64,000 nucleotides of DNA from a virus, in IMG/VR virus record IMGVR_UViG_3300029309_000005, positions 1 through 64,000 of that record, one strand, 5' to 3'. How positions within the stretch are numbered: position 1 is the stretch's first letter; each line of letters opens with the position of its first letter. Positions 6,313 to 47,054 of the stretch are shown here, piece after piece. The position numbers were made by a program, and so were the translations under genes. The notes beneath the pieces are model-generated. The model worked only from the letters and a program-made list of their open reading frames with translations, did no database searches and was not told the DNA's origin.

Positions 6313-7938
6313 TCACATCTGAGGCGGCCCAGGCTGAGTAGGATTCATTCTTATAACATCATCAATCCTCAAAACCATTATCGCTGCTTCAGTGGCAGAA
6401 GTAAGTGCTTGCTTATGTAATTCAACTGGTTCAATTACGCCCTGTATTAGCGCATCATGCGGGAATGGCTTCTCAGTTTCGACATCAACAAAGTATCTTA
6501 TGTTTCCATCTTTGCTGTTCTTTACTAAAGCAAGCATTTCATCCACAGGATCTAAACCAGCGTTTTCAGCAATCGCTTTTGGTATAGTTAGAAGTGCTTC
6601 TGCAAAAGCATCAACAGCCATCTGAACTCTACCCTCTGGCCTACAATGTTCCTTCAATTGGTTATACAGGTATGCTTGAGTCGAACCGCCACCAAATGTT
6701 AGGTTAGTATTGCGTGACATCAACCAGGCTACGCCCACAGCATCTTCTAAGGCTCTTTCAACTTCTTCTGCTACATGATTGGTAGCACCACAAGCGATAA
6801 TTGTCCTAATGTTTGAGTCCTTCTTTGTCACCATGATTAGATCATGTTCATACTTATCAGATACATAGAAAGCGCAATGGCCTATGTTATCAAAATCAAT
6901 AGGATTTGATAAACTCGAAACTACGCTTGCACCAGATATTTGACAAACTGAATCTAAGTCAGATTTTTTTACTGAGTGAACTGCGGTAATACCATATTTT
7001 TTCAGGTAGTGCAAAGCCAAATCATCAATCTTTCTTTGAGTTAGAACTACATTAGCACCTGATTGCTTAATTAGTTCAACCATATCTCTAATTGAATCTT
7101 CTTCTTGGCGTAAGAATTCCTCAACTTGAGATGGATTTGTAATTTGAACCTGTGCTTCCATGTTAGTTTTCTTAGGCTCAACAGAGCAATCCAGCAACAA
7201 TACCTTAGCCTCTGGAACTGTCCTTGTCATGGTTTGGCTTGCCAAATCTCTTTCGATTACAATACCTGGAATTTGCATAGTATCTTCCTCTTTTGTGCCA
7301 CTTGCTGAAACAAATCGAATATCCTCTATCGCATTAGCGTTTATTACGACATCTTTGGCTAAGTCTGCTAACTTGTGTTGAATACCTTCAGCAGATTTAC
7401 CAGTTAGCGATGAGAACGCAGCCAAATACGCTAACTTCTCTTTTAACTCTTGACTCAATGGTAACAACTTGTAGTGATTCTGGAACTCCTTCAGATTGAG
7501 AGCAGACAATTGATCTAACTCATCTAAACAAAACCTCTTTGCTATCCTGAAACCTTTGCAGATAGTCGTGGCATGAATAGAATTGTCTAGTAATCTCTCG
7601 GCTTCTTCGAGTAAAGCACCAGACAATACTACTGCACTCGTAGTGCCATCATAACACCGGCTTTCTTGAGTTTTTGCCACTTCAACAATCATTTTGGCTG
7701 CTGGATGTTCAATACCTATCTCTCGCAATATCGAAACTCCATCATTGGTAATTAGAGCATTTCCAGCAGGATCAATCAACATCTTATCCATGCCCAGTGG
7801 CCCTAGAGTCGTTTTGATTGCATTTCCTACCGCTTTTGCCGCTTGGATATTACTTCTTTGGGCTGCTGAACCGTTTGTTTGCTCAGTTCCTTTCTGCATG
7901 ATATATACTGGCTGTTGACCGTTACCTGCTGGCTGCAT
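6313..7938 (-). CDS. Thermosome subunit (group II chaperonin), 541 aa
   Basis: Full-length group II chaperonin. Visible signatures include [11 protein letters not shown] (residues 44-54), ITNDGVSIL (63-71), a nucleotide-loop [10 protein letters not shown] (96-105; normally GDGTT), the [10 protein letters not shown] region with the expected catalytic-side Asp, GGGSTQ (normally GGGA-x-E) and [13 protein letters not shown] near the end. It should form the double-ring ATP-driven folding chamber, alone or mixed with host subunits, presumably for viral proteins. Magroviruses of marine Euryarchaeota are known to encode thermosomes. The Gly-to-Tyr change in the nucleotide loop and Glu-to-Gln in GGGA-x-E are unusual. 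A CTTGATAAGT box lies 27 nt before the ATG, suggesting a leaderless promoter. Confidence 0.95.
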
Positions 7939-13196: not shown

Positions 13197-15938
13197 TCAT
13201 TCATCATCACCTACATCACCATTCATTAGAACATCCCAATCAGCATTGTAGTATGCCTCTAGCCTCTTTTTGGCATCTGTGCATTGAACACCCTGTAAAT
13301 CAGCATTGATGATGATATTCTGCTTTTTAGCCCTAGTGAATGCAACATAACCCATATTGATTTCATTGATTGCAGATTCCTTAGAAGCCTCTAGTGAACG
13401 CTTATTCATGAAACAATCAATGGTCTTTGGTGCATCAGGATCCTCAGAATCATTTGTCATGGAATTGACTACAAACATGATGTCTGCCTCATCTCCCTTG
13501 TATTTGTGGATTGTAGCAATATGAACAGCGTTGCCGCCACGCTCTGAGAACAGTGTATTATTGACCCAATTCATCAGAGCCTCACTGATGTTCTTACCGC
13601 TTAGACTGTCGCCAGAATCAGACCATAGCATTACGAATGCCTCTAGCAATTCTAGGTCGCCTTGCATCTCTTGATATTCAGTTGATTGAGCCAAAGCCTG
13701 TGTATCTCCCTTGAACAGGTCGATGTATTTGGCTCTGAGTAGTGTTCTAATCTCATCAATAGAAAACAACAAAGTGCTAGACAAATTCATAACTTGACTA
13801 TATTGATTTGGCACTGACAAATCTTTCCAGCCTAATCCTAGCCTGGATTTGGCATTTACATTTCGAGTAGTGGTGTTAGATTGCGCCCTGTTAGCCAGTG
13901 CGAATGCTTGCTTGACAATACCATCTTTACCGCTAGGAGTTGATACTGGGATGCCATTCTTCAAGAATACCTTGATGAATGATGCTAATGGCCTCTTAAC
14001 TCTGCACAGCAGCCCAAAGGTCACATCTTCACCATGTAGCCTCCTAGACTCATGATATGCAGTTACAATCTCATCAGCAGTAATCTGTGCAGGTAAAGCA
14101 CCTTTAGGCCAGTCATATCCAGCCTCTAGTGGTGAACGGTGGGCTTGATAATCTGGAACATCCATATCTAATCCCCAGTGGCCTCTAGCGATGCTTACAA
14201 AGTTCTTACAAGCAACTCTAGCACTAGCAGCAACCATAGCGGTTCCTCTCCAGCAAATAGTGTTAGGATAGAATGTAGCACCTATCTTTTCAGCATTGGT
14301 CTTGAAAGCATCATTGTCAGCACCACAGAACGCATAGATAGCCTGTTTGAAGTCACCTACAATCACTTTGATTGCATTGTCCTTCACCAGCCTCCAAACC
14401 AGTTCTGCTTTGAGTATGCTGAGATCCTGAACTTCATCAATGAAAACTACATCTGCCTTTTCATGCTCTGCAATTTGCAGGTCTAAAGCATGTGGCAGAT
14501 AGATTTGGTCTGCCATGCTCAGATAGCATACTCCATTGCTAGTTACAGTTTCAACATCATCGACAGTGACATCACCTTCTAATTGATTGTCAAACTCATC
14601 ACCAAAGGTATCTGAGAGCAGTTTGATGACCTTCTTCAAGTCCTTTGGATTGATGACCGTAACTCCTAGATTTTGATTGAATTTACGCCATGAAGATACT
14701 CTTTCACCGTTGACTGAATAATTGCCCTTGAAACCAAACTGTGTGCCTATTGTTTTGTCACCTAGACGCTTCTTATGGCCTCCATTCTCAAAGGACATGA
14801 TAGTGTGACCAGAATACTCTTTGACAATACATTTGGCCTCAGTTTTGAATGATTTAGCAGAGATCGAGTTCTCCTTCTTCTCTGCTGGCGGCCACCTGCA
14901 ACCAGCAGTTTCAAGAGCAGCAAATTTAGCAGTTTCTTGAATTGCAGGGTCGGTGGTATAGATGCACTTAGATAACGGTTTAGCACTGTCTGGATAGCCT
15001 TGCCTGTTCTTATTTGGTATGATGGCTGACATAGGACTATTACTGCCACAGTATGGCCTTAATTCAGTTTTCAAGTATGCAGTTTCGATTACTACGGCCA
15101 GGATTTCAACTACCAACTGATACACAGATTGGTCGCCTAGATTTCTAGCGTTATTCTCAAACCAGCCTTGATTTACGCCCACCTTGTCAATGACTTCTAT
15201 CAGTGCTGCAATGTCATCTGAATGCACAGTAGGTGGAGTATATTGTTTGGAAATACAACTCCATGATTGACAAGGTTGTGGGGCTAGATTAGTGCCACAT
15301 GTGCAGACATCATTCTCAAATCGACCAGTATTCCTAATCGTATTACTAGGCACATATCCCTCATCCATAGCCATTGTAGCCACTTCAACTAATGGATTAA
15401 TCAGATTGTTGAATGTTGAAGATGTAGCCTTTTCCTGTGTAATCTCTTGAACCTGCTCTAGCAGCGATAATCTGTCCTCCCTAGCCAACCAGCCTGAGAG
15501 GGTAATACGAGCGATTCTAGCGTATCTATCGTTACCAAACTTAGTCAGAGCAACCCTGCTGAAACCTTCGCTTCTAGCCTTGCTAGTAATCATGCCGTGG
15601 CCTCCAGCATTGACAGTATTTGAGCCACCTAGGATCTTGACATTCAGACCAGCCTTGGTCTTGAATTCGAGTAGGATTTCCTTAGATGATTCCGATATGT
15701 GTGTATTGAACGCTGTCATCGCAGTTAGCAACTGTGGGGCTAGATGTGCAGTAATGTGACACATGCCCTGCAACAAAGATGTCTTTCCAGAACCTGCCAC
15801 AGCATCAATAGCAATGGAGAATGGTGTGCCATCCTGTGTGTAGGCATCCAATCCCTCTGCAAATGCGTCTAGCACATCCATCTGCTCATCAGACCATGTG
15901 TTCCCGTTTCTATCAACTGTTGGTATTACTGCCATCAT
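13197..15938 (-). CDS. SF1 (UvrD/Rep-like) DNA helicase, 913 aa
   Basis: Superfamily 1A helicase. Motif I is VAGSGKTS (residues 47-54), motif II VFIDEVQD, motif III VGDFKQAIYAFCGAD, motif V ATIHKYKGDEADIMFVV and motif VI GYVAFTRAKKQN. ATP-dependent 3'-5' unwinding of DNA is expected from the family. Residues ~200-240 contain a Cys cluster (CTCGTN ... CQSWSC), a zinc insertion not typical of UvrD. Residues ~290-420 form a further insertion between motifs Ia and II. Likely acts in viral replication or recombination. ATGATGG start overlaps the upstream gene. Confidence 0.9.
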   Translation of the reverse strand: MMAVIPTVDRNGNTWSDEQMDVLDAFAEGLDAYTQDGTPFSIAIDAVAGSGKTSLLQGMCHITAHLAPQLLTAMTAFNTHISESSKEILLEFKTKAGLNVKILGGSNTVNAGGHGMITSKARSEGFSRVALTKFGNDRYARIARITLSGWLAREDRLSLLEQVQEITQEKATSSTFNNLINPLVEVATMAMDEGYVPSNTIRNTGRFENDVCTCGTNLAPQPCQSWSCISKQYTPPTVHSDDIAALIEVIDKVGVNQGWFENNARNLGDQSVYQLVVEILAVVIETAYLKTELRPYCGSNSPMSAIIPNKNRQGYPDSAKPLSKCIYTTDPAIQETAKFAALETAGCRWPPAEKKENSISAKSFKTEAKCIVKEYSGHTIMSFENGGHKKRLGDKTIGTQFGFKGNYSVNGERVSSWRKFNQNLGVTVINPKDLKKVIKLLSDTFGDEFDNQLEGDVTVDDVETVTSNGVCYLSMADQIYLPHALDLQIAEHEKADVVFIDEVQDLSILKAELVWRLVKDNAIKVIVGDFKQAIYAFCGADNDAFKTNAEKIGATFYPNTICWRGTAMVAASARVACKNFVSIARGHWGLDMDVPDYQAHRSPLEAGYDWPKGALPAQITADEIVTAYHESRRLHGEDVTFGLLCRVKRPLASFIKVFLKNGIPVSTPSGKDGIVKQAFALANRAQSNTTTRNVNAKSRLGLGWKDLSVPNQYSQVMNLSSTLLFSIDEIRTLLRAKYIDLFKGDTQALAQSTEYQEMQGDLELLEAFVMLWSDSGDSLSGKNISEALMNWVNNTLFSERGGNAVHIATIHKYKGDEADIMFVVNSMTNDSEDPDAPKTIDCFMNKRSLEASKESAINEINMGYVAFTRAKKQNIIINADLQGVQCTDAKKRLEAYYNADWDVLMNGDVGDDE

Positions 15939-17603: not shown

Positions 17604-17644
17604 CGTTACGGCAATACTCCCCGTAGTCGTAACCACACTATGCA

Positions 17645-17656
17645 GGGTATATCAAC
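17645..17656 (-). promoter_or_regulatory. Leftward operon promoter
   Basis: Minus strand TGTTGATATACCCTG, nearly the same 13 bases as the box before the gene at 5639. A start ~25 nt downstream gives a short leader with GGGGAG before the ATG at 17603. It probably drives the whole leftward operon. Confidence 0.5.
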
Positions 17657-17669
17657 ACTACGGACAACA

Positions 17670-17915
17670 TAGACACTAAAGACACATTTCGAGACAGGGG
17701 TGTTCCATATCAAAAAGAGCATACTGCAAGCATCTAACAGCACATCTTAGGACACAATAGACACTTTCGACAGTTCCCTCAATATATGCAGACAAAAGAC
17801 AGGGATTTCATAGGGGAAATATGCAGTAAATCTAGGTGAAAATATACTGTTGTTTGTCATGTATTTTGTGTCTTTTTTATTGGCATCATGTCTAATATGT
17901 CTATCGTGTCTAATG
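17670..17915. repeat. TAGACA/TGTCTA hexamer cluster with three 9-bp direct repeats
   Basis: TAGACA occurs at 17670 and 17758. Its complement TGTCTA occurs at 17889, 17898 and 17907, exactly 9 bp apart, forming three direct 9-mers of the form TGTCTAnnn. Related AGACA words occur between them. Such phased repeats usually bind an initiator or repressor protein. Confidence 0.5.
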
Positions 17916-18049
17916 TGGACTCAAAGATCGCTACTTTCAACCAGTATCAATACAACCGAAAACGACCTACTGCGAACCCCCTGCCGCTTGGGTGGGTGTT
18001 CGTTTTGTTTTGTTGAAATATGAGACAAATTGTGTATTTTGGTGTCCTA

Positions 18050-18376
18050 CCAGGCTCTCAGTGGGTCGAAATTGGGTGTCGGACTGGGTTTTAGGCTAGG
18101 ATTTGGCCCGTTTTGAGCCAGTTTGTGGGCATGAAACTAGGTGTAAGACTGAGTGGCCTACCCAGTGTGGATATATCGCCACAGAACCCAGTTTATCGCC
18201 ACAAAATGGCCGGTTTTATCGCTACAAACACCCAGTTTGCGAGCCAGATCGAACGCACTGAGCCGAGCAGCCAGTCTGACGACTGGCTGGTGTGCCATAA
18301 ACGGGTGACTGAGAGCCTGGAACGCCCAGTATTGCACCCAGTAACTGCTAAATAGGCTCGCAGTAGCCTTTTTTTT
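18050..18376 (+). ncRNA. Candidate structured RNA closed by a 13-bp helix
   Basis: CCAGGCTCTCAGT at 18050-18062 is perfectly complementary to ACTGAGAGCCTGG at 18308-18320. Inside lie a perfect 9-bp hairpin (CAGCCAGTC-TGAC-GACTGGCTG, 18268-18289) and further complementary words, for example ACTGGGTT with AACCCAGT and GGGTGT with ACACCC. The segment is much richer in G+C than its surroundings and is followed by T8 at 18369-18376. Together these suggest a non-coding RNA, strand + if the T-tract terminates it. A DNA-level role such as a cruciform or origin is the alternative. Confidence 0.4.
18174..18238 (+). repeat. Three TATCGCYACA direct repeats
   Basis: TATCGCCACA begins at 18174 and 18194, and TATCGCTACA at 18217. 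Two of the three are followed by ACCCAGTTT and the middle one by a GGCCGGTTT variant, giving ~20-23 bp units. They lie inside the candidate structured RNA. Confidence 0.5.
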
Positions 18377-18418
18377 GCCTAAAAGGGGTAGATTTGGGCA
18401 TATTTTTTTTTTTTTTTT
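18369..18418 (+). terminator. Poly-T tracts (T8 and T16)
   Basis: T8 at 18369-18376 and T16 at 18403-18418. Archaeal transcription terminates at such T-runs without needing a hairpin. They could end a rightward RNA made from the control region and insulate the promoter at 18499. Confidence 0.45.
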
Positions 18419-18498
18419 GGCTGCCGCCATAAGTGACATACGCTACACGGAAAAAAATTTGAGAAAAAGTTGTTAGGAATGTCAATTAGTTGAGATGG

Positions 18499-18508
18499 AT
18501 TTATTTTA
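18499..18508 (+). promoter_or_regulatory. Rightward TATA box
   Basis: GATTTATTTTAA is centred 26 nt before the ATG at 18530, the archaeal spacing for a leaderless transcript. This decides the start of the first rightward gene. Confidence 0.5.
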
Positions 18509-20038: not shown

Positions 20039-20142
20039 CGAGATGTAAATTATTAGACGGATGGCTTGATATTCAATCGAAAAGGATTGATGAAAAAGAA
20101 AAGCAGACCAAGAGGTGTTCTGTCACTGGTGAGAAAAAATGA
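20035..20142 (+). CDS. Micropeptide, 35 aa
   Basis: Thirty-five residues, basic and polar, with two cysteines (TRC and RCSVTGEKK). It bridges the 100-nt gap between two larger genes with ATGA overlaps on both sides, the same junction used all along this array. No tag peptide. Confidence 0.45.
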   Translation: MTRCKLLDGWLDIQSKRIDEKEKQTKRCSVTGEKK

Positions 20143-20621: not shown

Positions 20622-21205
20622 GTTCTTTTAATGTCGCTTGGGATTCCATTACAAAAATGCCTATTGTTCCTGGTTCAGTTTCAGAAGGAGTGCCAGATCC
20701 TAGAGCCAGATACGCAAAAAGTGGTTACAAGCAATATACGGCTTCATTTGAAGATCCTGTAACTGGTGAAATACTACCAATGTTGGCAAGACATGGCCCA
20801 AGTGACCTTCAGGTTACTATCAAAGACCCTAAAGAAGAAGTTATACTCTCGACTCTTGACCTTGACAGCCAATCCGATAACGCCTACCGAATAACATATG
20901 ATGATCAAGGTAACAAAAACCGTATGGAAGATTGGGAAATTTTGCCGCCCTACTATTCGGCAGGTTATGTAGAAACCCAAGATGACCGTCAAAGAAGGGG
21001 TTATGCTACGGCATTATATGACTTAGCAGCATACTTGTTAAGTCGAGGCCATCCAAACTACGAAGAACAATGGGGAGGCCAGCCACCGCTATCTATCGTT
21101 CCATCTGGCGACCAAGAAGAAGATGGTTTTTTGTTTTGGGAAAACGCATATAAGACTGGTAAAGTAACGGATGACGATACTTGGCGAGTGAGGGATGACT
21201 TATGA
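20618..21205 (+). CDS. Tagged GNAT acetyltransferase-like protein, 195 aa
   Basis: Starts at the ATG at 20618, which overlaps the previous stop and follows GGAGGGAG; this start puts the tag FNVAWDSITKMP at residues 4-15. The C-terminal half shows GYVETQDDRQRRGYATALYDLAAYL, matching GNAT motif A (R-x-x-G-x-A pyrophosphate loop), and later EEDGFLFWENAYK, matching the last conserved helix. The N-terminal half may contribute substrate binding. It resembles the C-terminal domain of the polyprotein at 18530-20038. Acetylation of host factors is a possible role; substrate unknown. Confidence 0.7.
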   Translation: MSSFNVAWDSITKMPIVPGSVSEGVPDPRARYAKSGYKQYTASFEDPVTGEILPMLARHGPSDLQVTIKDPKEEVILSTLDLDSQSDNAYRITYDDQGNKNRMEDWEILPPYYSAGYVETQDDRQRRGYATALYDLAAYLLSRGHPNYEEQWGGQPPLSIVPSGDQEEDGFLFWENAYKTGKVTDDDTWRVRDDL

Positions 21206-22071
21206 TTAGGATTTTTGAGGTCGGCCCACGTGATGGTTTGCAGAATCTCCCCCATGTTCCATCCACAGAAGATAAAATCAAACTAATCCAATTACTGCGT
21301 GATGCAGGTCTTACTCGAATAGAAATTGCTTCATTCGTGCATCCAAAAGCAGTTCCAAACATGGCTGACGCTGAAGAAGTCTGCAAAGCGTTTGATAATA
21401 AAACTGGATTATCTGTGCTGGTTCCAAATAAGCGTGGTCTTGATCGAGCGATAGAATCTGGTATGGGCAACTTCAACATATTCTTTTCACCATCTGATAC
21501 TTTCAATGTAGCAAACTACGGTTTGAAGTTAGAACAGATATTAGAAGGATATGAAACGACTCTGCAAAATGTGTCTCCAGATATTGTTAGAGTGTATATA
21601 TCAGAGGCATTTGAAGCAAGTCAGGAGGAACTTACATTAGCGATACAACACGGTTTAAGGTTTGGAAATAGAATTGTGCTATGTGATACTAAAGGCACAG
21701 CCAAACCATTTGATATAGCAACTGGTATAGGAATCGCACAAGACTTCACACATGAAATATCATTACACCTTCATCATGGTCGCTACTTGATGAATAATGT
21801 GGCAACTGGATATGCAAACGGTGTGCGAGAGTTTGATTCGAGTATTGGCGGTCTTGGCGGTTGTCCGTTTGTTGAGAACTCTGGTGCTAATCTTGCTACT
21901 GAAGAATTAGTGAGATGGTGTAATAAGAGAGGAATAGATTGTGGAGTTAAACTATCTGATTTGAAGGCGGCACGTAAGTTAGCACATAAAATCAAAAATC
22001 CAACGCTTCGTATAGCAATAAAGAATAAGGTTAAGTCCACTAGGGATAGAATACGGGCGGGGTTATCATGA
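21202..22071 (+). CDS. HMG-CoA lyase-like TIM-barrel enzyme, 289 aa
   Basis: Strong resemblance to hydroxymethylglutaryl-CoA lyase. It has VGPRDGLQN (residues 7-15, with catalytic Arg and Asp), RIEIASFVHPKAVPNMAD, LCDTKGTAKP, a metal-binding HLH (~189) and GGLGGCPFVENSGANLATEELV (~214-235, with the flexible-loop catalytic Cys). The known reaction splits HMG-CoA into acetyl-CoA and acetoacetate; related lyases act on similar acyl-CoAs. It has no tag and is near normal family length. It lies in the tagged array with ATGA overlaps on both sides, so it is probably an auxiliary metabolic gene rather than debris. HCHD of the family is HLHH here. Confidence 0.85.
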   Translation: MIRIFEVGPRDGLQNLPHVPSTEDKIKLIQLLRDAGLTRIEIASFVHPKAVPNMADAEEVCKAFDNKTGLSVLVPNKRGLDRAIESGMGNFNIFFSPSDTFNVANYGLKLEQILEGYETTLQNVSPDIVRVYISEAFEASQEELTLAIQHGLRFGNRIVLCDTKGTAKPFDIATGIGIAQDFTHEISLHLHHGRYLMNNVATGYANGVREFDSSIGGLGGCPFVENSGANLATEELVRWCNKRGIDCGVKLSDLKAARKLAHKIKNPTLRIAIKNKVKSTRDRIRAGLS

Positions 22072-22754
22072 CGGCTTTTGACACCACTTGGGATTTGCTC
22101 AAGGATTTCTATTTTTCACCCAAGGACACGAAAATGAATGTCGTAAGACGTGATGACGGAAGCGTTCTTTCGTTTGCTGATCGGTTGGGAGAAATGCAGC
22201 CACCTATGATTGATGCCGATTATATGAGAAGGATTACAAGAGGATCTGATTTCAAACCTATTCCCTCGCCTTTTGTTGAGGGCAAGCACCAACCAGTTAT
22301 TTTGCCGAGAAATGTTGTGATGGAACATGACCCAGAAGAAGGAGGGTTTGCGCCAAGGCGAATTGATTCAATGCGAATGAGGGAAATGTATCGAGGCCAT
22401 GAAGGACTACCACACTATGTCGGAGTCAATTTATCAGCAATGCGTCAAGGCGAGGATGATTTAGATACGATATTAGAAACTTTGGCTCATGAACACGCTC
22501 ATGCAGCCATTGATGATGAGTTGATGCAGGTTTTGTATGATAGAATGGTGGAGGCTCAAAATTATGATGACGCTGAAAAAGCCTATCATCAGCACGTAGG
22601 GGCGCATGAAATCGGGGCATATAATCTCCAAAATCCAGGCGGAGAGGATGCTGCACGATCAGCCCGATTTAGCACAATACTTCATCCCAATTACAAATTA
22701 GCAAATCGGGGCAAGAGTCCACCGATGGCATACATTAGAGATAATCTAAAATAA
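22068..22754 (+). CDS. Tagged HExxH metallopeptidase-like protein, 228 aa
   Basis: Tag FDTTWDLLKDF at residues 4-14. The body contains DTILETLAHEHAHAAIDDE (~133-151), an H-E-H-A-H zinc motif, followed by HVGAHEIGAYNL ~40 residues later, which could supply the third ligand (His or Glu) as in gluzincins. This is the second metallopeptidase-like cargo of the array after the gene at 20139. No signal peptide. It ends the first segment of the array and is followed by T-tracts. Confidence 0.7.
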   Translation: MTAFDTTWDLLKDFYFSPKDTKMNVVRRDDGSVLSFADRLGEMQPPMIDADYMRRITRGSDFKPIPSPFVEGKHQPVILPRNVVMEHDPEEGGFAPRRIDSMRMREMYRGHEGLPHYVGVNLSAMRQGEDDLDTILETLAHEHAHAAIDDELMQVLYDRMVEAQNYDDAEKAYHQHVGAHEIGAYNLQNPGGEDAARSARFSTILHPNYKLANRGKSPPMAYIRDNLK

Positions 22755-22826
22755 TTTTTTTTGTGTAGTTTCAAAACTGGCTTAAAATAATGCCACATAG
22801 CCAAAAAGTGGCCTAATTTTTTTTTT
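22755..22826 (+). terminator. Two T-tracts flanking a short inverted repeat
   Basis: T8 at 22755-22762 immediately follows the stop of the previous gene. A second run, T10 at 22817-22826, follows a small inverted repeat (GCCAC at 22792, GTGGC at 22808). They probably terminate the transcript from 18530. Confidence 0.5.
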
Positions 22827-22837
22827 CGATGGAATGG

Positions 22838-22847
22838 CTTTATTTCA
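22838..22847 (+). promoter_or_regulatory. TATA box for second array segment
   Basis: GGCTTTATTTCAG is centred ~27 nt upstream of the ATG at 22869 and resembles the box at 18499; no ribosome site precedes the ATG, consistent with a leaderless transcript. Confidence 0.5.
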
Positions 22848-22868
22848 GATAGCCACCTGCACATTAAT

Positions 22869-42588: not shown

Positions 42589-44025
42589 ATGTCAGACGCT
42601 TTACAAAAATTGGCAGCCAATGTTGATTTTGAAATGGGGCGTAGAGATTTCAAATACTTTTTTGAAGAAATATGTGGCAAATTCGATGAAAAGAATCCTT
42701 GGATTTTGACAAAATTTCATCAAGAATGGTTTGATTTATCTGAAAACAACAACAAGACTTGTATCGTAGCCAGTCGTGATCACGGCAAATCTGTATTCTA
42801 TCGTGTGTATCTACTATGGAAAATGGCATATAATCCTGGCACAGAAGTCTTATTTTTCTCTCATAGTCAGCACCAGTCAATTGAACACATGGCTAAGATG
42901 AATGAATTGATTGAATCAATACCTGCATTGCAGCATCTTAAACCAAAAAGAGGTTGGGCAAAGCAGAAGTTCAAGTTCACAAATAAGTCATCAATATCTG
43001 CTATGTCTGTTGGTAAAGCGGTTCGTGGCGCACACCCTCAAATTGTAGTGCTTGACGATATTCTATCTAGCGAAGCGCAAACACAGTTAAAGCATATTTC
43101 ATCTTGGTTCTATACTGCATTATTGCCAGTTCTTCACCATACAGCACAATTATGTATTGTTGGAACACCATTTTCATATACTGATTTGTATTCAGAATTA
43201 AAAAAACTAAAATCGTATGCTGTTAGAGAATACCCTGCAATTAATGAGCAAACAGGAGAACCATTATTCCCTGAACGCTGGTCTTTGGATGCACTGAATA
43301 ATAGAAGAAATGATATGACATCCATAGCATTTACTAGGGAATATTTGTGTAAGCCGATTGCTAGTGAAGCAAGTTTGTTTCCAGAAGAAGTTCTTGAAAA
43401 AGTTAAAGATGAACACTTGTCATTATCTTATTATCCTCATGACGGTGAATCATACAATTACTACATAGGATGGGATCCTGCAATTTCAGCAGACCGGAGA
43501 GCAGATTATACCTGTATGATGGTGATTGCAGTTGATGAAAATAAAAACAAACATGTTATTCATACACATCATGAAAAAGGAATGGACTTTTCATCACAAA
43601 TAGATAAAATCATAGAATTGAATGCTAGATTTAATCCAGTAATTATTGAATTAGAGACAAATAACTTTGCTGTGGCATTCAATCAAGTTCTAAATGAGAT
43701 TAGCGATCTTCCAATAAAACCATTCAATATGAGCCGAATGAAGAAAGAGGCTTTAATTCATACCCTCCAACTGCAATTTGAACAGGGCAAACTAACTTTA
43801 CCTTACAAAGATGAAGGAGGCACAAGAAGATTGATGAATACTCTATTAACCGAACTCTCTACGTTCACTATGCTGGATAACGGTAGAATGGAGAGTCTAG
43901 GCGGTCACGATGACATGGTTATGGCTCTTGCTCTAAGTGTTCAAGCAACAAAGGAGTATCGTGATAACATCGTTATACTAGATGCTGACATATGGCAGAA
44001 TAGACTAGGGTGGGCAAATGTCTGA
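42589..44025 (+). CDS. terL: Terminase large subunit, 478 aa
   Basis: ATPase domain: Walker A VASRDHGKSVFY (60-71), LFFSHSQHQS, Walker B IVVLDDILSSE (~147-157) and coupling motif CIVGTPFSY. Nuclease domain: YIGWDPAISADRRADYTCMMV (~287-307, first metal-binding Asp), VIIELETNNFAVAF (~352-365) and GHDDMVMALALS (~443-454). It powers DNA translocation into the prohead and cuts the concatemer, docked on the portal. Full length with all expected motifs. Confidence 0.93.
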   Translation: MSDALQKLAANVDFEMGRRDFKYFFEEICGKFDEKNPWILTKFHQEWFDLSENNNKTCIVASRDHGKSVFYRVYLLWKMAYNPGTEVLFFSHSQHQSIEHMAKMNELIESIPALQHLKPKRGWAKQKFKFTNKSSISAMSVGKAVRGAHPQIVVLDDILSSEAQTQLKHISSWFYTALLPVLHHTAQLCIVGTPFSYTDLYSELKKLKSYAVREYPAINEQTGEPLFPERWSLDALNNRRNDMTSIAFTREYLCKPIASEASLFPEEVLEKVKDEHLSLSYYPHDGESYNYYIGWDPAISADRRADYTCMMVIAVDENKNKHVIHTHHEKGMDFSSQIDKIIELNARFNPVIIELETNNFAVAFNQVLNEISDLPIKPFNMSRMKKEALIHTLQLQFEQGKLTLPYKDEGGTRRLMNTLLTELSTFTMLDNGRMESLGGHDDMVMALALSVQATKEYRDNIVILDADIWQNRLGWANV

Positions 44026-45253
44026 AAGAATAGAGGGAGTTTTAGGTGTTGAGTCGCCCACTGATGTTATACTCAAAATTTTGGATGAACAACTCATTGA
44101 TGCGGAATTGAAAAACAATGCTCAAGAAAGAAAACTTCTCGAAACTCAGAAAAAAGTTGCTGCAAAAAAAGGCAAATCGACAGGCGAATCACGTGAAGGT
44201 GCTAGTATAGATGGATTAGATGCAGACAATCGAGGTGGAGGTGATGTTCAACCAGGAACTGCCGTTCAAACTCAAACATCCCCCATTCCAGTTACAAAGA
44301 CATGGTTTGTTGATAATTTTGGGATGCAAGGATCTGAAATGGTTGATTTATTTATGAAATCTGACAAAAGTGAAATTGTTTCAATTATAGAACCGTTGAT
44401 TATTCAAGAAAGAATTGCTTTATTGAAATCATTTCCTTCAGTTTCTCCCGATCTTGTTACTAAAATCCCATTTACTGATTTTGATTGGCAGATGTTACAA
44501 AAAAATGTATCATCATTGGAAATACCATTTAGAAGATTTGTGAAAAGTTGGAGTGATGGAAATGATTCTGCGTATGATGTTTGGCACAATCGCATTACAA
44601 AGGAACAAAGATTAAGTTTGCCAGAAAGAAAAATATTACAAAAAGCACATGATGTTTTAGAATCTCATGGTAGCATGAATACTCAATCGTTACAGTCGCA
44701 TGGCGTTAATGGTAGCACTACTAAAATTGCCATGTTAATAAAATCACATGGATTTTTGTATGATATTAAGCCACAGGGTAGCGGCTCAAAAAATACAGAC
44801 AAAGGTTTGTTTTATGGGTTACAAAAGATGGATGTTTTCATAAAAGATGCTGGTGCTTTGATTGGCGGGTTATATGAGATGGGAGGGGAAATTGAAATCA
44901 GTTCACGTGGCATTCCAAGATTGGTTCTACCTTTTAGTTCTAACATTCGCAAAGAATATGCCAATGCACTGAATAATGAATTGGGTGTGCGAGGAATTAT
45001 AGCCGAAGGCAGGGGGCTAGTGATTGAAGGGGAGATTTCAGTCGCTAAATCAATTGAGTCTGCTTTACCATTTTTGCATGATAAGAAAGGAGAGATTGTT
45101 ATACTAAAGAAGTCACTAAAAGATGATACTGATGCTTTGCGGTGTTTAACATACTCACAATCTAAGCCTCAGAAACAAGTGTCTTTACTGAAAATGTGGA
45201 ACATGTCATTAGAATCATTTGAAACTATGAAACGAGGTGTGATTGATGGCTGA
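44018..45253 (+). CDS. HTH plus LAGLIDADG-like domain protein between terL and portal, 411 aa
   Basis: Residues 1-95 are a charged, probably disordered N-terminus. Residues ~95-200 are helical. Residues ~205-260 look like a helix-turn-helix (RKILQKAHDVLESHGSMNTQ ... TTKIAMLIKSHGF). Residues ~275-375 resemble one LAGLIDADG repeat: ALIGGLYEMGGEIEISS ... LNNELGVRGIIAEGRGLVIEG ... SIESALPFL. The catalytic acid of the LAGLIDADG motif is glycine (M-G-G), so it should not cut DNA; WhiA regulators have a comparable inactive fold. Overlaps terL by 8 nt and the portal gene by 8 nt. Confidence 0.6.
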   Translation: MSERIEGVLGVESPTDVILKILDEQLIDAELKNNAQERKLLETQKKVAAKKGKSTGESREGASIDGLDADNRGGGDVQPGTAVQTQTSPIPVTKTWFVDNFGMQGSEMVDLFMKSDKSEIVSIIEPLIIQERIALLKSFPSVSPDLVTKIPFTDFDWQMLQKNVSSLEIPFRRFVKSWSDGNDSAYDVWHNRITKEQRLSLPERKILQKAHDVLESHGSMNTQSLQSHGVNGSTTKIAMLIKSHGFLYDIKPQGSGSKNTDKGLFYGLQKMDVFIKDAGALIGGLYEMGGEIEISSRGIPRLVLPFSSNIRKEYANALNNELGVRGIIAEGRGLVIEGEISVAKSIESALPFLHDKKGEIVILKKSLKDDTDALRCLTYSQSKPQKQVSLLKMWNMSLESFETMKRGVIDG

Positions 45254-47054
45254 TAAAGAGCGATTAGAACGGCTCTTTTCTGCCATAGGTATAGACATGG
45301 AGAGGCATACTACTCCAATGCCAACTATGCCTTTGTTCCAGTCTGGAATACAAGAGCCTCCACTTTTACAAGGTATCACAATACCTGCCTTGTATGCTTG
45401 CACATTTGAGTGCGTAGTTTTGCGTTCTATTCTAAATCATTTAGCAGTTGAAACATTTCGTAAAGGGTATGGATGGAAACCAAAGTTTGTTGTAAAGTGT
45501 GTTGATTGTAATGAAGTATATCATCAAGAAGTTGATGCCTGTAAAAAGTGTGGCGGTGAAGTTCGTAAGGCAGACAAAGGCGAATTAGAATATGCTGAAA
45601 CTTTACTCGAAAGCAAAAATGGAATGATGCAAAACTTTGTTGAAATTATGAAAGAAATTGAAATGGACTTAAACATTGTTGATGATGCTTACATTGTTTT
45701 GACAAAAGAATACTTCGTTGATCCTGATAGCAAGAAGGTTATGTTTTATCGAATAAAAGAAATATCACGTGCAGACCCTATCTTTATGCGTATGCTTGCT
45801 GATAAAAGAGGGGTTCGTGGAGGTAGTCAATACACAAGTTTAGTTGATAGAACCTTCAGAACCAGTGACCCAAAAGATAAGTGTCCTACAACTGGTATGC
45901 CAGTAGTGCCAATACATTACATGAACCTAGCAGGTGTTGGTAAAGGTCAAGTATATACTGAAGGCGAAGTAATACACCTAAGTAAGTGGTCGCCATCTAA
46001 ACTGTATGGTCGTAGCCCAGTTGCTACGATGTGGAGGCAAGTGAACACTTTAATTGCTATGGATAACTATGTTTATTCTGCATATCAAAAGAAGCGTATG
46101 CCTAGAGGTGTAATGGTGATTAAATCATCCAATATGGAAACTGTTGAAAGAACTGCTAGAAATATACAGGAACACCTTGAGCGTGACCCATCTTACATTC
46201 CTACAATTGGTGTTGAAACTGAATCTGGTAGAGGCGGTCTTGAATATGTCCGTATGATGGACACACTAGAAGAATTACAATATATTCCAATCAAAGACGA
46301 TATTAGACAAAGAATTGCTGCATTCTTTGGCGTGTCAAATGTGTTTATGAATGATGTATCTGGAGGCGGTTTGAATAATGAAGGTATGCAGATTGTAGTT
46401 AGCAATCGTGCGGTTGCTTATGCTCAGTCTATTTACAATCGTATTTTATTCCCTCAACTTGTCGAAGCGTTTGAAATCAAAGAATGGGAATTGGTTTTGA
46501 ACCCGCATGAAGAAGAAGATGAAATCATGCAACTCAGGAGAGATGAAATGGCAATACGCAATATGATGCAGATGAAACAAGCAGGTTATGACGCATCATT
46601 GAGAGATGGTATTGATGATAAGATTCTGCACTTTGATTTCAAAGAACCTGATCCGCAGAAAGTGGCTGCTGCTGAAGCAGCACAGGCGGCTGCTGCTCAA
46701 CAACAGGGAGGTCAAGCCCCTGTTCAAAAAACGAATGAAATTGATGATGACCCAAGTATGATGTTCAAACGAACTACATTTGATTCAAGTCGGGGGTCTG
46801 TGCCTATTAATGCTTCATTGATAACTACTGTTGGCACTGATTTGCCACCGCTAAGAACTCAAAGTCAAAACACTAGAAGAAGCGGTGGCTCAAGTCCAGG
46901 TATGATTGATCGAGTCGAAGGTGCGCCTACTGGTGCAGATGTAAAAACCGATAAACGCAATTTGAAATCACCCGCAGAAAAAGCAATTGATGAAAATATA
47001 CGTCAAAAGGAAAAACGCAATGGTTTAGGCGAATCAAGGGGTAACAGTCAATAA
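45246..47054 (+). CDS. Portal protein with zinc-ribbon insertion, 602 aa
   Basis: Tailed-virus portal features: YACTFECVVLRSILNHLAVETFRKGYGW at the N-terminus, GEVIHLSKWSPSKLYGRSPVATMWRQVNTL, then IKDDIRQRIAAFFGVSNVFM (the clip/stem region of SPP1-type portals) and SNRAVAYAQSIYNRILFPQL. A zinc ribbon CVDCNEV ... CKKCGGEV (Cys 85, 88, 99, 102) is inserted near the N-terminus. It forms the dodecameric DNA channel and binds terminase. The C-terminal ~130 residues are low in complexity, including DPSMMFKRTTFD. ATG at 45246 follows GAGGTG. Confidence 0.88.
   Translation: MADKERLERLFSAIGIDMERHTTPMPTMPLFQSGIQEPPLLQGITIPALYACTFECVVLRSILNHLAVETFRKGYGWKPKFVVKCVDCNEVYHQEVDACKKCGGEVRKADKGELEYAETLLESKNGMMQNFVEIMKEIEMDLNIVDDAYIVLTKEYFVDPDSKKVMFYRIKEISRADPIFMRMLADKRGVRGGSQYTSLVDRTFRTSDPKDKCPTTGMPVVPIHYMNLAGVGKGQVYTEGEVIHLSKWSPSKLYGRSPVATMWRQVNTLIAMDNYVYSAYQKKRMPRGVMVIKSSNMETVERTARNIQEHLERDPSYIPTIGVETESGRGGLEYVRMMDTLEELQYIPIKDDIRQRIAAFFGVSNVFMNDVSGGGLNNEGMQIVVSNRAVAYAQSIYNRILFPQLVEAFEIKEWELVLNPHEEEDEIMQLRRDEMAIRNMMQMKQAGYDASLRDGIDDKILHFDFKEPDPQKVAAAEAAQAAAAQQQGGQAPVQKTNEIDDDPSMMFKRTTFDSSRGSVPINASLITTVGTDLPPLRTQSQNTRRSGGSSPGMIDRVEGAPTGADVKTDKRNLKSPAEKAIDENIRQKEKRNGLGESRGNSQ

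Follow-up and report, generated by a model that had tools for sequence, protein, structure and literature searches.

A conserved non-coding control region of a magrovirus with features of a cos-like genome end

In phage lambda, the cos site (cosN plus cosB) combines a defined genome end and partial dyad symmetry with repeats that are placed immediately inside one end, and in phi29 the gene for the packaging RNA (pRNA) is located close to the genome end. In archaea, transcription termination depends on U-tracts, and a hairpin is not strictly needed (PMC8716108). Magroviruses have genomes of 90-110 kb in which the replication and morphogenesis modules are oppositely directed (PMC12999244), and these uncultured viruses are reportedly ubiquitous in surface ocean waters (PMC10160649). 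A literature search of limited coverage returned no description of magrovirus genome ends or control regions. Here, we analyzed a ~870-bp conserved non-coding control region (17637-18508) that separates two oppositely transcribed gene modules, and whose core is a GC-rich repeat domain at 18050-18376.

The window, i.e. the whole 64,000-nt stretch of DNA that was analyzed, corresponds to bases 1-64000 of a virus record that is 96,627 bp long. Genes that were recognized in it include:

6313-7938, - strand: archaeal-type thermosome
13197-15938, - strand: UvrD-like helicase
42589-44025, + strand: large terminase
45243-47054, + strand: portal protein

The thermosome gene scores above the curated cut-off. 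The terminase has 80 kept relatives among viral contigs, and its sole confirmed relative in the genome assemblies searched is a contig from a Poseidoniales single-cell genome (78% identity), which is masked at one end and proved uninformative. Because the genome size and the opposed gene directions are those of magroviruses, and because the terminase relative and the thermosome associate the virus with Poseidoniales, the window is from a magrovirus (order Magrovirales), a tailed virus of marine Poseidoniales (Marine Group II) archaea. DNA polymerase B had no match among the proteins scanned, which were a subset of the virus's proteins. The helicase has its family matches in two separated parts (about 42-61 and 473-879), making an inserted segment possible, and the homologue of this frame in one relative (G022) is 3539 aa long. 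An HMGL-like (PF00682) enzyme gene at 21202-22071, with 73-77% identity in related magroviruses, may be an auxiliary metabolic gene. An N-terminal tag like M(T/N)AFDTAWxLLK(MP), which may serve sorting, virion targeting or processing, is common to thirteen predicted proteins and recurs in the relatives L088 and L089; the tagged genes start at 20139, 22068, 22869, 23383, 24378, 24803, 25252, 25515, 26141, 26476 and 27617 in the window, and at record positions 81199 and 81381 outside it.

A homologous intergenic region was found in 12 other viral contigs, representing about 11 distinct viruses (G005, L228, L196, L230, G018, L226, G040, G045, G025, G022, G027 and G035). When the conserved box and the TGTC array described below were used for pattern scans, most matches were unrelated and were removed by inspection or BLAST, and nucleotide searches of named phage records with the window's region and that of one relative gave zero matches. 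As single-sequence queries, the left helicase and the rightward gene recovered no confirmed viral relatives; the same type of search with the terminase and the HMGL-like protein did recover viral relatives. The order of parts, as read from a seven-virus alignment, is common to these viruses. The leftward gene is followed by GACA arrays with a 9-bp period, an AT-rich core, a TGTC array, the sequence CCT/GCCG (the slash marks the apparent end) and a GACA...TGTCC dyad; next come the GC-rich repeat domain and a hairpin, then a T10-16 tract, a conserved box, TTTAT and the rightward gene. In the window, the features are positioned as follows:

17663-17684, + strand: GACA array, three copies with a 9-bp period, located by pattern search and kept in relatives
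17751-17772, + strand: second GACA array, three copies with a 9-bp period, kept in relatives
17889-17910, + strand: TGTC array, three copies with a 9-bp period, inverted relative to the GACA arrays
17983-17984, no strand: apparent genome end (CCT/GCCG), based on coincident contig ends, GC-skew and dyad symmetry
18024-18047, + strand: conserved GACA...TGTCC dyad, from the seven-virus alignment
18050-18376, + strand: GC-rich repeat domain
18050-18062, + strand: 5' arm of a 13-bp inverted repeat, not kept in relatives
18174-18226, + strand: three TATCGCYACA repeats; ATCGCCACAGA-like repeats also occur in close relatives
18268-18289, + strand: hairpin H1, 9-bp stem and TGAC loop, position and stem length kept with compensatory changes
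18308-18320, + strand: 3' arm of the 13-bp inverted repeat
18355-18376, + strand: short stem GGCT/AGCC followed by T8, terminator-like in sequence
18403-18418, + strand: T16 tract, probable terminator, T10-16 in all relatives
18442-18479, + strand: conserved box GCTACACGGAAAAAAATTTGAGAAAAAGTTGTTAGGAA, from the alignment
18500-18507, + strand: candidate TATA box of the rightward operon, TTTATTTT, with TTTAT kept there in seven viruses

Within the TGTC array lies TGTCTATCGTGTC, one of the region's most conserved words, and the conserved box reads GCTACACGGAAAAA...AAAAAGTTGTT in the window. The dyad at 18024-18047 might act as an operator or as the promoter for a rightward transcript. The region contains no tRNA or tmRNA, and a hidden small protein was ruled out, as no reading frame is common to all relatives.

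Four of the homologous contigs (G005, G018, G025 and G027) stop on the same homologous base, which corresponds to position 17983 of the window. As G025 and G027 are identical at this site, at least three lineages support the end. Within the region, contigs end at the homologue of 17983 and nowhere else; no contig stopping at the left-hand side of the cut was recovered. Not all contigs stop at this base, as the ends of G003, G009, G014, G016, G022, G033, G034, G035, G044 and G046, and of several HMGL-group loci, lie in other sequence. Moreover, eight of the 12 homologous contigs, as well as the window itself, run through 17983, as would be the case if the sequenced DNA included concatemers or terminal repeats. 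The cumulative GC-skew of the 96.6-kb record reaches its minimum at 17985, where the gene direction also switches, and the dyad score at the 17983 site is 45 versus a background of 25.4 (sd 5.1), the best of 40 centres tested; L226 reads ACCCTGCGGGCAGGGT at the end site. A fixed, terminase-made DNA end would account for the contig ends, the skew minimum and the dyad, while the coincidence of the contig ends may have arisen in assembly. Should 17983 be a fixed end, the domain would lie 68-394 bp inside it, magrovirus genomes would gain a start coordinate, their packaging mode would become testable from existing viromes, and attention would be directed to the repeats and hairpin that would be needed by the packaging machinery.

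The hairpin is the one structural element of the domain that is conserved. The sequence-only reading had described a 9-bp tetraloop hairpin, which is indeed present at 18268-18289 as CAGCCAGTC-TGAC-GACTGGCTG. A perfect 8-9-bp hairpin with a short loop occurs 104-148 nt 5' of the T10-16 tract in each relative compared (G035 has a 7-bp hairpin about 130 nt before its T-tract), and G018, L226, G025 and G022 contain a second hairpin 29-36 nt before the tract. In nine aligned sequences, seven of them distinct, 63 of 63 hairpin cells are paired, and the covariation score is 0.762, as compared to at most 0.09 for slid versions of the hairpin. When G040 and G045, which are one base off register in the alignment, are added, 91% of the cells are paired. 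The compensatory changes whose absence would have spoken against a structured element were found, as hairpin pairs have changed on both sides in 7 of 9 cases, with 14 double changes in total and no G·U cell. The combination of free sequence and strict pairing argues for recognition of structure, and given the lack of G·U pairs, this structure may act as DNA (a cruciform or single-stranded hairpin) instead of RNA. For the 3' part, consensus folds on the two strands have similar energies, and the alignments do not tell the RNA strand. A hairpin whose sequence changes freely while its pairing is kept offers a promising route to its binding partner.

The GC-richness and short repeats noted earlier in the domain were also borne out, with one qualification. 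Its G+C content is 44-54% per 100 bp versus 40% for the window, and the TATCGCYACA repeats at 18174, 18194 and 18217 occur nowhere else on that strand in the window. The complementary CCCAGT/ACTGGG words, described as many, are present but lie mostly in one orientation (CCCAGT five times and ACTGGG once in 18001-18400). As close relatives carry ACTGGG-type words almost only as direct repeats, whereas those in the window are mostly inverted, the complementarity is peculiar to the window's virus and helps explain its strong fold. The repeats are strongly strand-biased in close relatives and differ between lineages.

The domain does end in T8 (18369-18376), and a longer T16 tract lies beyond it. 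Only four runs of eight or more T are present on the + strand of the 96.6-kb record, at 18369, 18403, 22755 and 22817; the latter two lie after the stop codon of the gene ending at 22754, with CGATGGAATGGCTTTATTTC and the next gene beyond them. In G005, a similar T8/T10 pair is followed by a TTTAT motif (L225 10223 and 10283). The T-tracts have the sequence of archaeal U-tract terminators, and because such tracts terminate transcription without a strict need for a hairpin, they suggest rightward transcription from upstream. As no plausible rightward gene, and no reading frame common to relatives, lies upstream of them, a rightward non-coding transcript is plausible, and the domain is probably transcribed into a short non-coding RNA that stops at the T-tracts. 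Elsewhere in the rightward module, 22755-22862 forms a second terminator-promoter junction (stop codon, T8, short stem, T10 and TTTATTTC), which suggests a separate transcription unit; here, TTTATTTC, which is similar to the candidate TATA box, precedes the gene after 22839.

We favor, at about an even chance of its being correct, the reading that the region is a cos-like genome end in which the GC-rich domain at 18050-18376 serves packaging recognition and probably gives rise to a short rightward non-coding RNA. Conservation of the region, the covarying hairpin, the coincident contig ends, the GC-skew switch and the T-tracts are observed, whereas a physical end, a role in packaging and a transcript are inferred. 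In the proposed mechanism, the packaging enzyme (terminase) would cut concatemeric DNA at about 17983, and the packaging machinery would recognize the short repeats of the domain and its fixed-length hairpin just inside the end. Rightward transcription of the domain would produce a ~300-400 nt non-coding RNA that stops at T8/T16, and this stop would insulate the promoter of the rightward operon, which lies beyond. A replication origin might be present in the same region and would be compatible with a genome end. Alternatively, the function of the hairpin and repeats may lie in transcription or replication. A packaging or replication role, as proposed in the sequence-only reading, gains weight because the locus abuts the apparent genome end, but the closed large RNA behind that proposal is unsupported.

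A tentative alternative, which we regard as possible, is that the domain is primarily a non-coding RNA gene that starts near 18030-18060, ends at T8/T16 and acts through H1 and the repeated words, for instance on the late operon, the nearby genome end being incidental. The T-tracts lacking an upstream rightward gene, the covarying hairpin and the absence of a common reading frame all agree with such a gene, whereas it is opposed by the zero Rfam matches, by the folds of G005, L228, L196 and G018, which are no better than shuffles, and by a hairpin that has no G·U pair and whose RNA strand is not told by the alignments. A replication origin as the primary function is unlikely. The inverted GACA/TGTC arrays around the AT-rich core (17663-17910) are possible initiator or regulator binding sites, and in this reading an initiator would bind them and the skew switch would mark bidirectional replication from the region. 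Triple arrays of this kind are found in the 96.6-kb record only in this intergenic region, most relatives keep them, and the skew minimum at 17985 fits an origin. However, an origin would not be expected to yield exact contig ends, and the skew switch may reflect the coding strand only, as the gene direction changes at this position too. It is improbable that the locus encodes a packaging RNA beside the genome end, i.e. an analogue of the phi29 pRNA in a terminase-based virus, in which an 18050-18400 rightward transcript would help to recognize or cut the end via H1.

It is very improbable that the domain folds into a single large RNA with the 13-bp stem closing it, as was first suggested from the sequence, and as a shared feature this RNA was rejected. 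The perfect inverted repeat (18050-18062 with 18308-18320) is real and beyond chance, as none of 200 dinucleotide shuffles attained it (their longest inverted repeat averages 7.6 bp), and the window's RNA fold is better than that of shuffles, equally so on both strands (z of -3.3 on + and -3.2 on -). However, the longest inverted repeats in other main-group viruses are within chance (P 0.08-0.24), and the alignment reveals that G005 and L196 lack the 5' arm and that L228 and L230 retain at best a part of it, whereas ACTGAGAGCCT of the 3' arm is kept as sequence in close relatives, even those without the 5' arm. By this comparison, the closing stem is specific to the window's virus. With 40 shuffles each, the fold z values on the + strand are -4.2 for the window, -0.9 for G005, -0.8 for L228, -1.0 for L196, -2.3 for L230, -1.0 for G018, -2.0 for L226, -3.1 for G040, -1.5 for G045, -2.6 for G025 and -3.0 for G022. 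Folding potential is thus uneven, being moderate in some lineages and no better than shuffles in the three closest relatives. Only local hairpins are kept, as opposed to a multi-helix fold with covariation throughout, and no Rfam family (including GOLLD and ROOL) was matched at gathering score by the window or its relatives. Finally, an ordinary divergent promoter region with repeats and a hairpin by chance has scarcely any probability, as already held by the sequence-only reading: repeats that vary by lineage and promoters on both flanks would suit it, but this non-coding region is conserved across magroviruses, its covarying hairpin is fixed in length and position in all relatives, its terminator-like T-tract and box are conserved, and contig ends coincide in it.

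Among the known systems, the large ornate phage RNAs in Rfam, such as GOLLD and ROOL, resemble the locus as long non-coding stretches in a viral genome, but the magrovirus region matches no Rfam family and its global fold is not conserved. Archaeal U-tract terminators (PMC8716108) are similar to T8 and T16, which precede a promoter in an arrangement that recurs after the stop codon at 22754; those in the control region differ in that no protein-coding gene lies upstream on that strand. The phi29 pRNA gene is loosely similar, as a candidate non-coding RNA lies close to the apparent genome end, but the magrovirus is terminase-based, and its putative transcript has neither an Rfam match nor a conserved multi-helix fold. 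As compared to a lambda-type cos, for which direct terminal repeats are a possible substitute at the magrovirus end, the region is distinguished by its covarying hairpin, its terminator-like T-tracts and its occurrence in an archaeal virus, and the cut and protein binding are putative here. The two are alike in having a defined end, apparent in the magrovirus, with partial dyad symmetry, and repeats inside that end, as in cosB.
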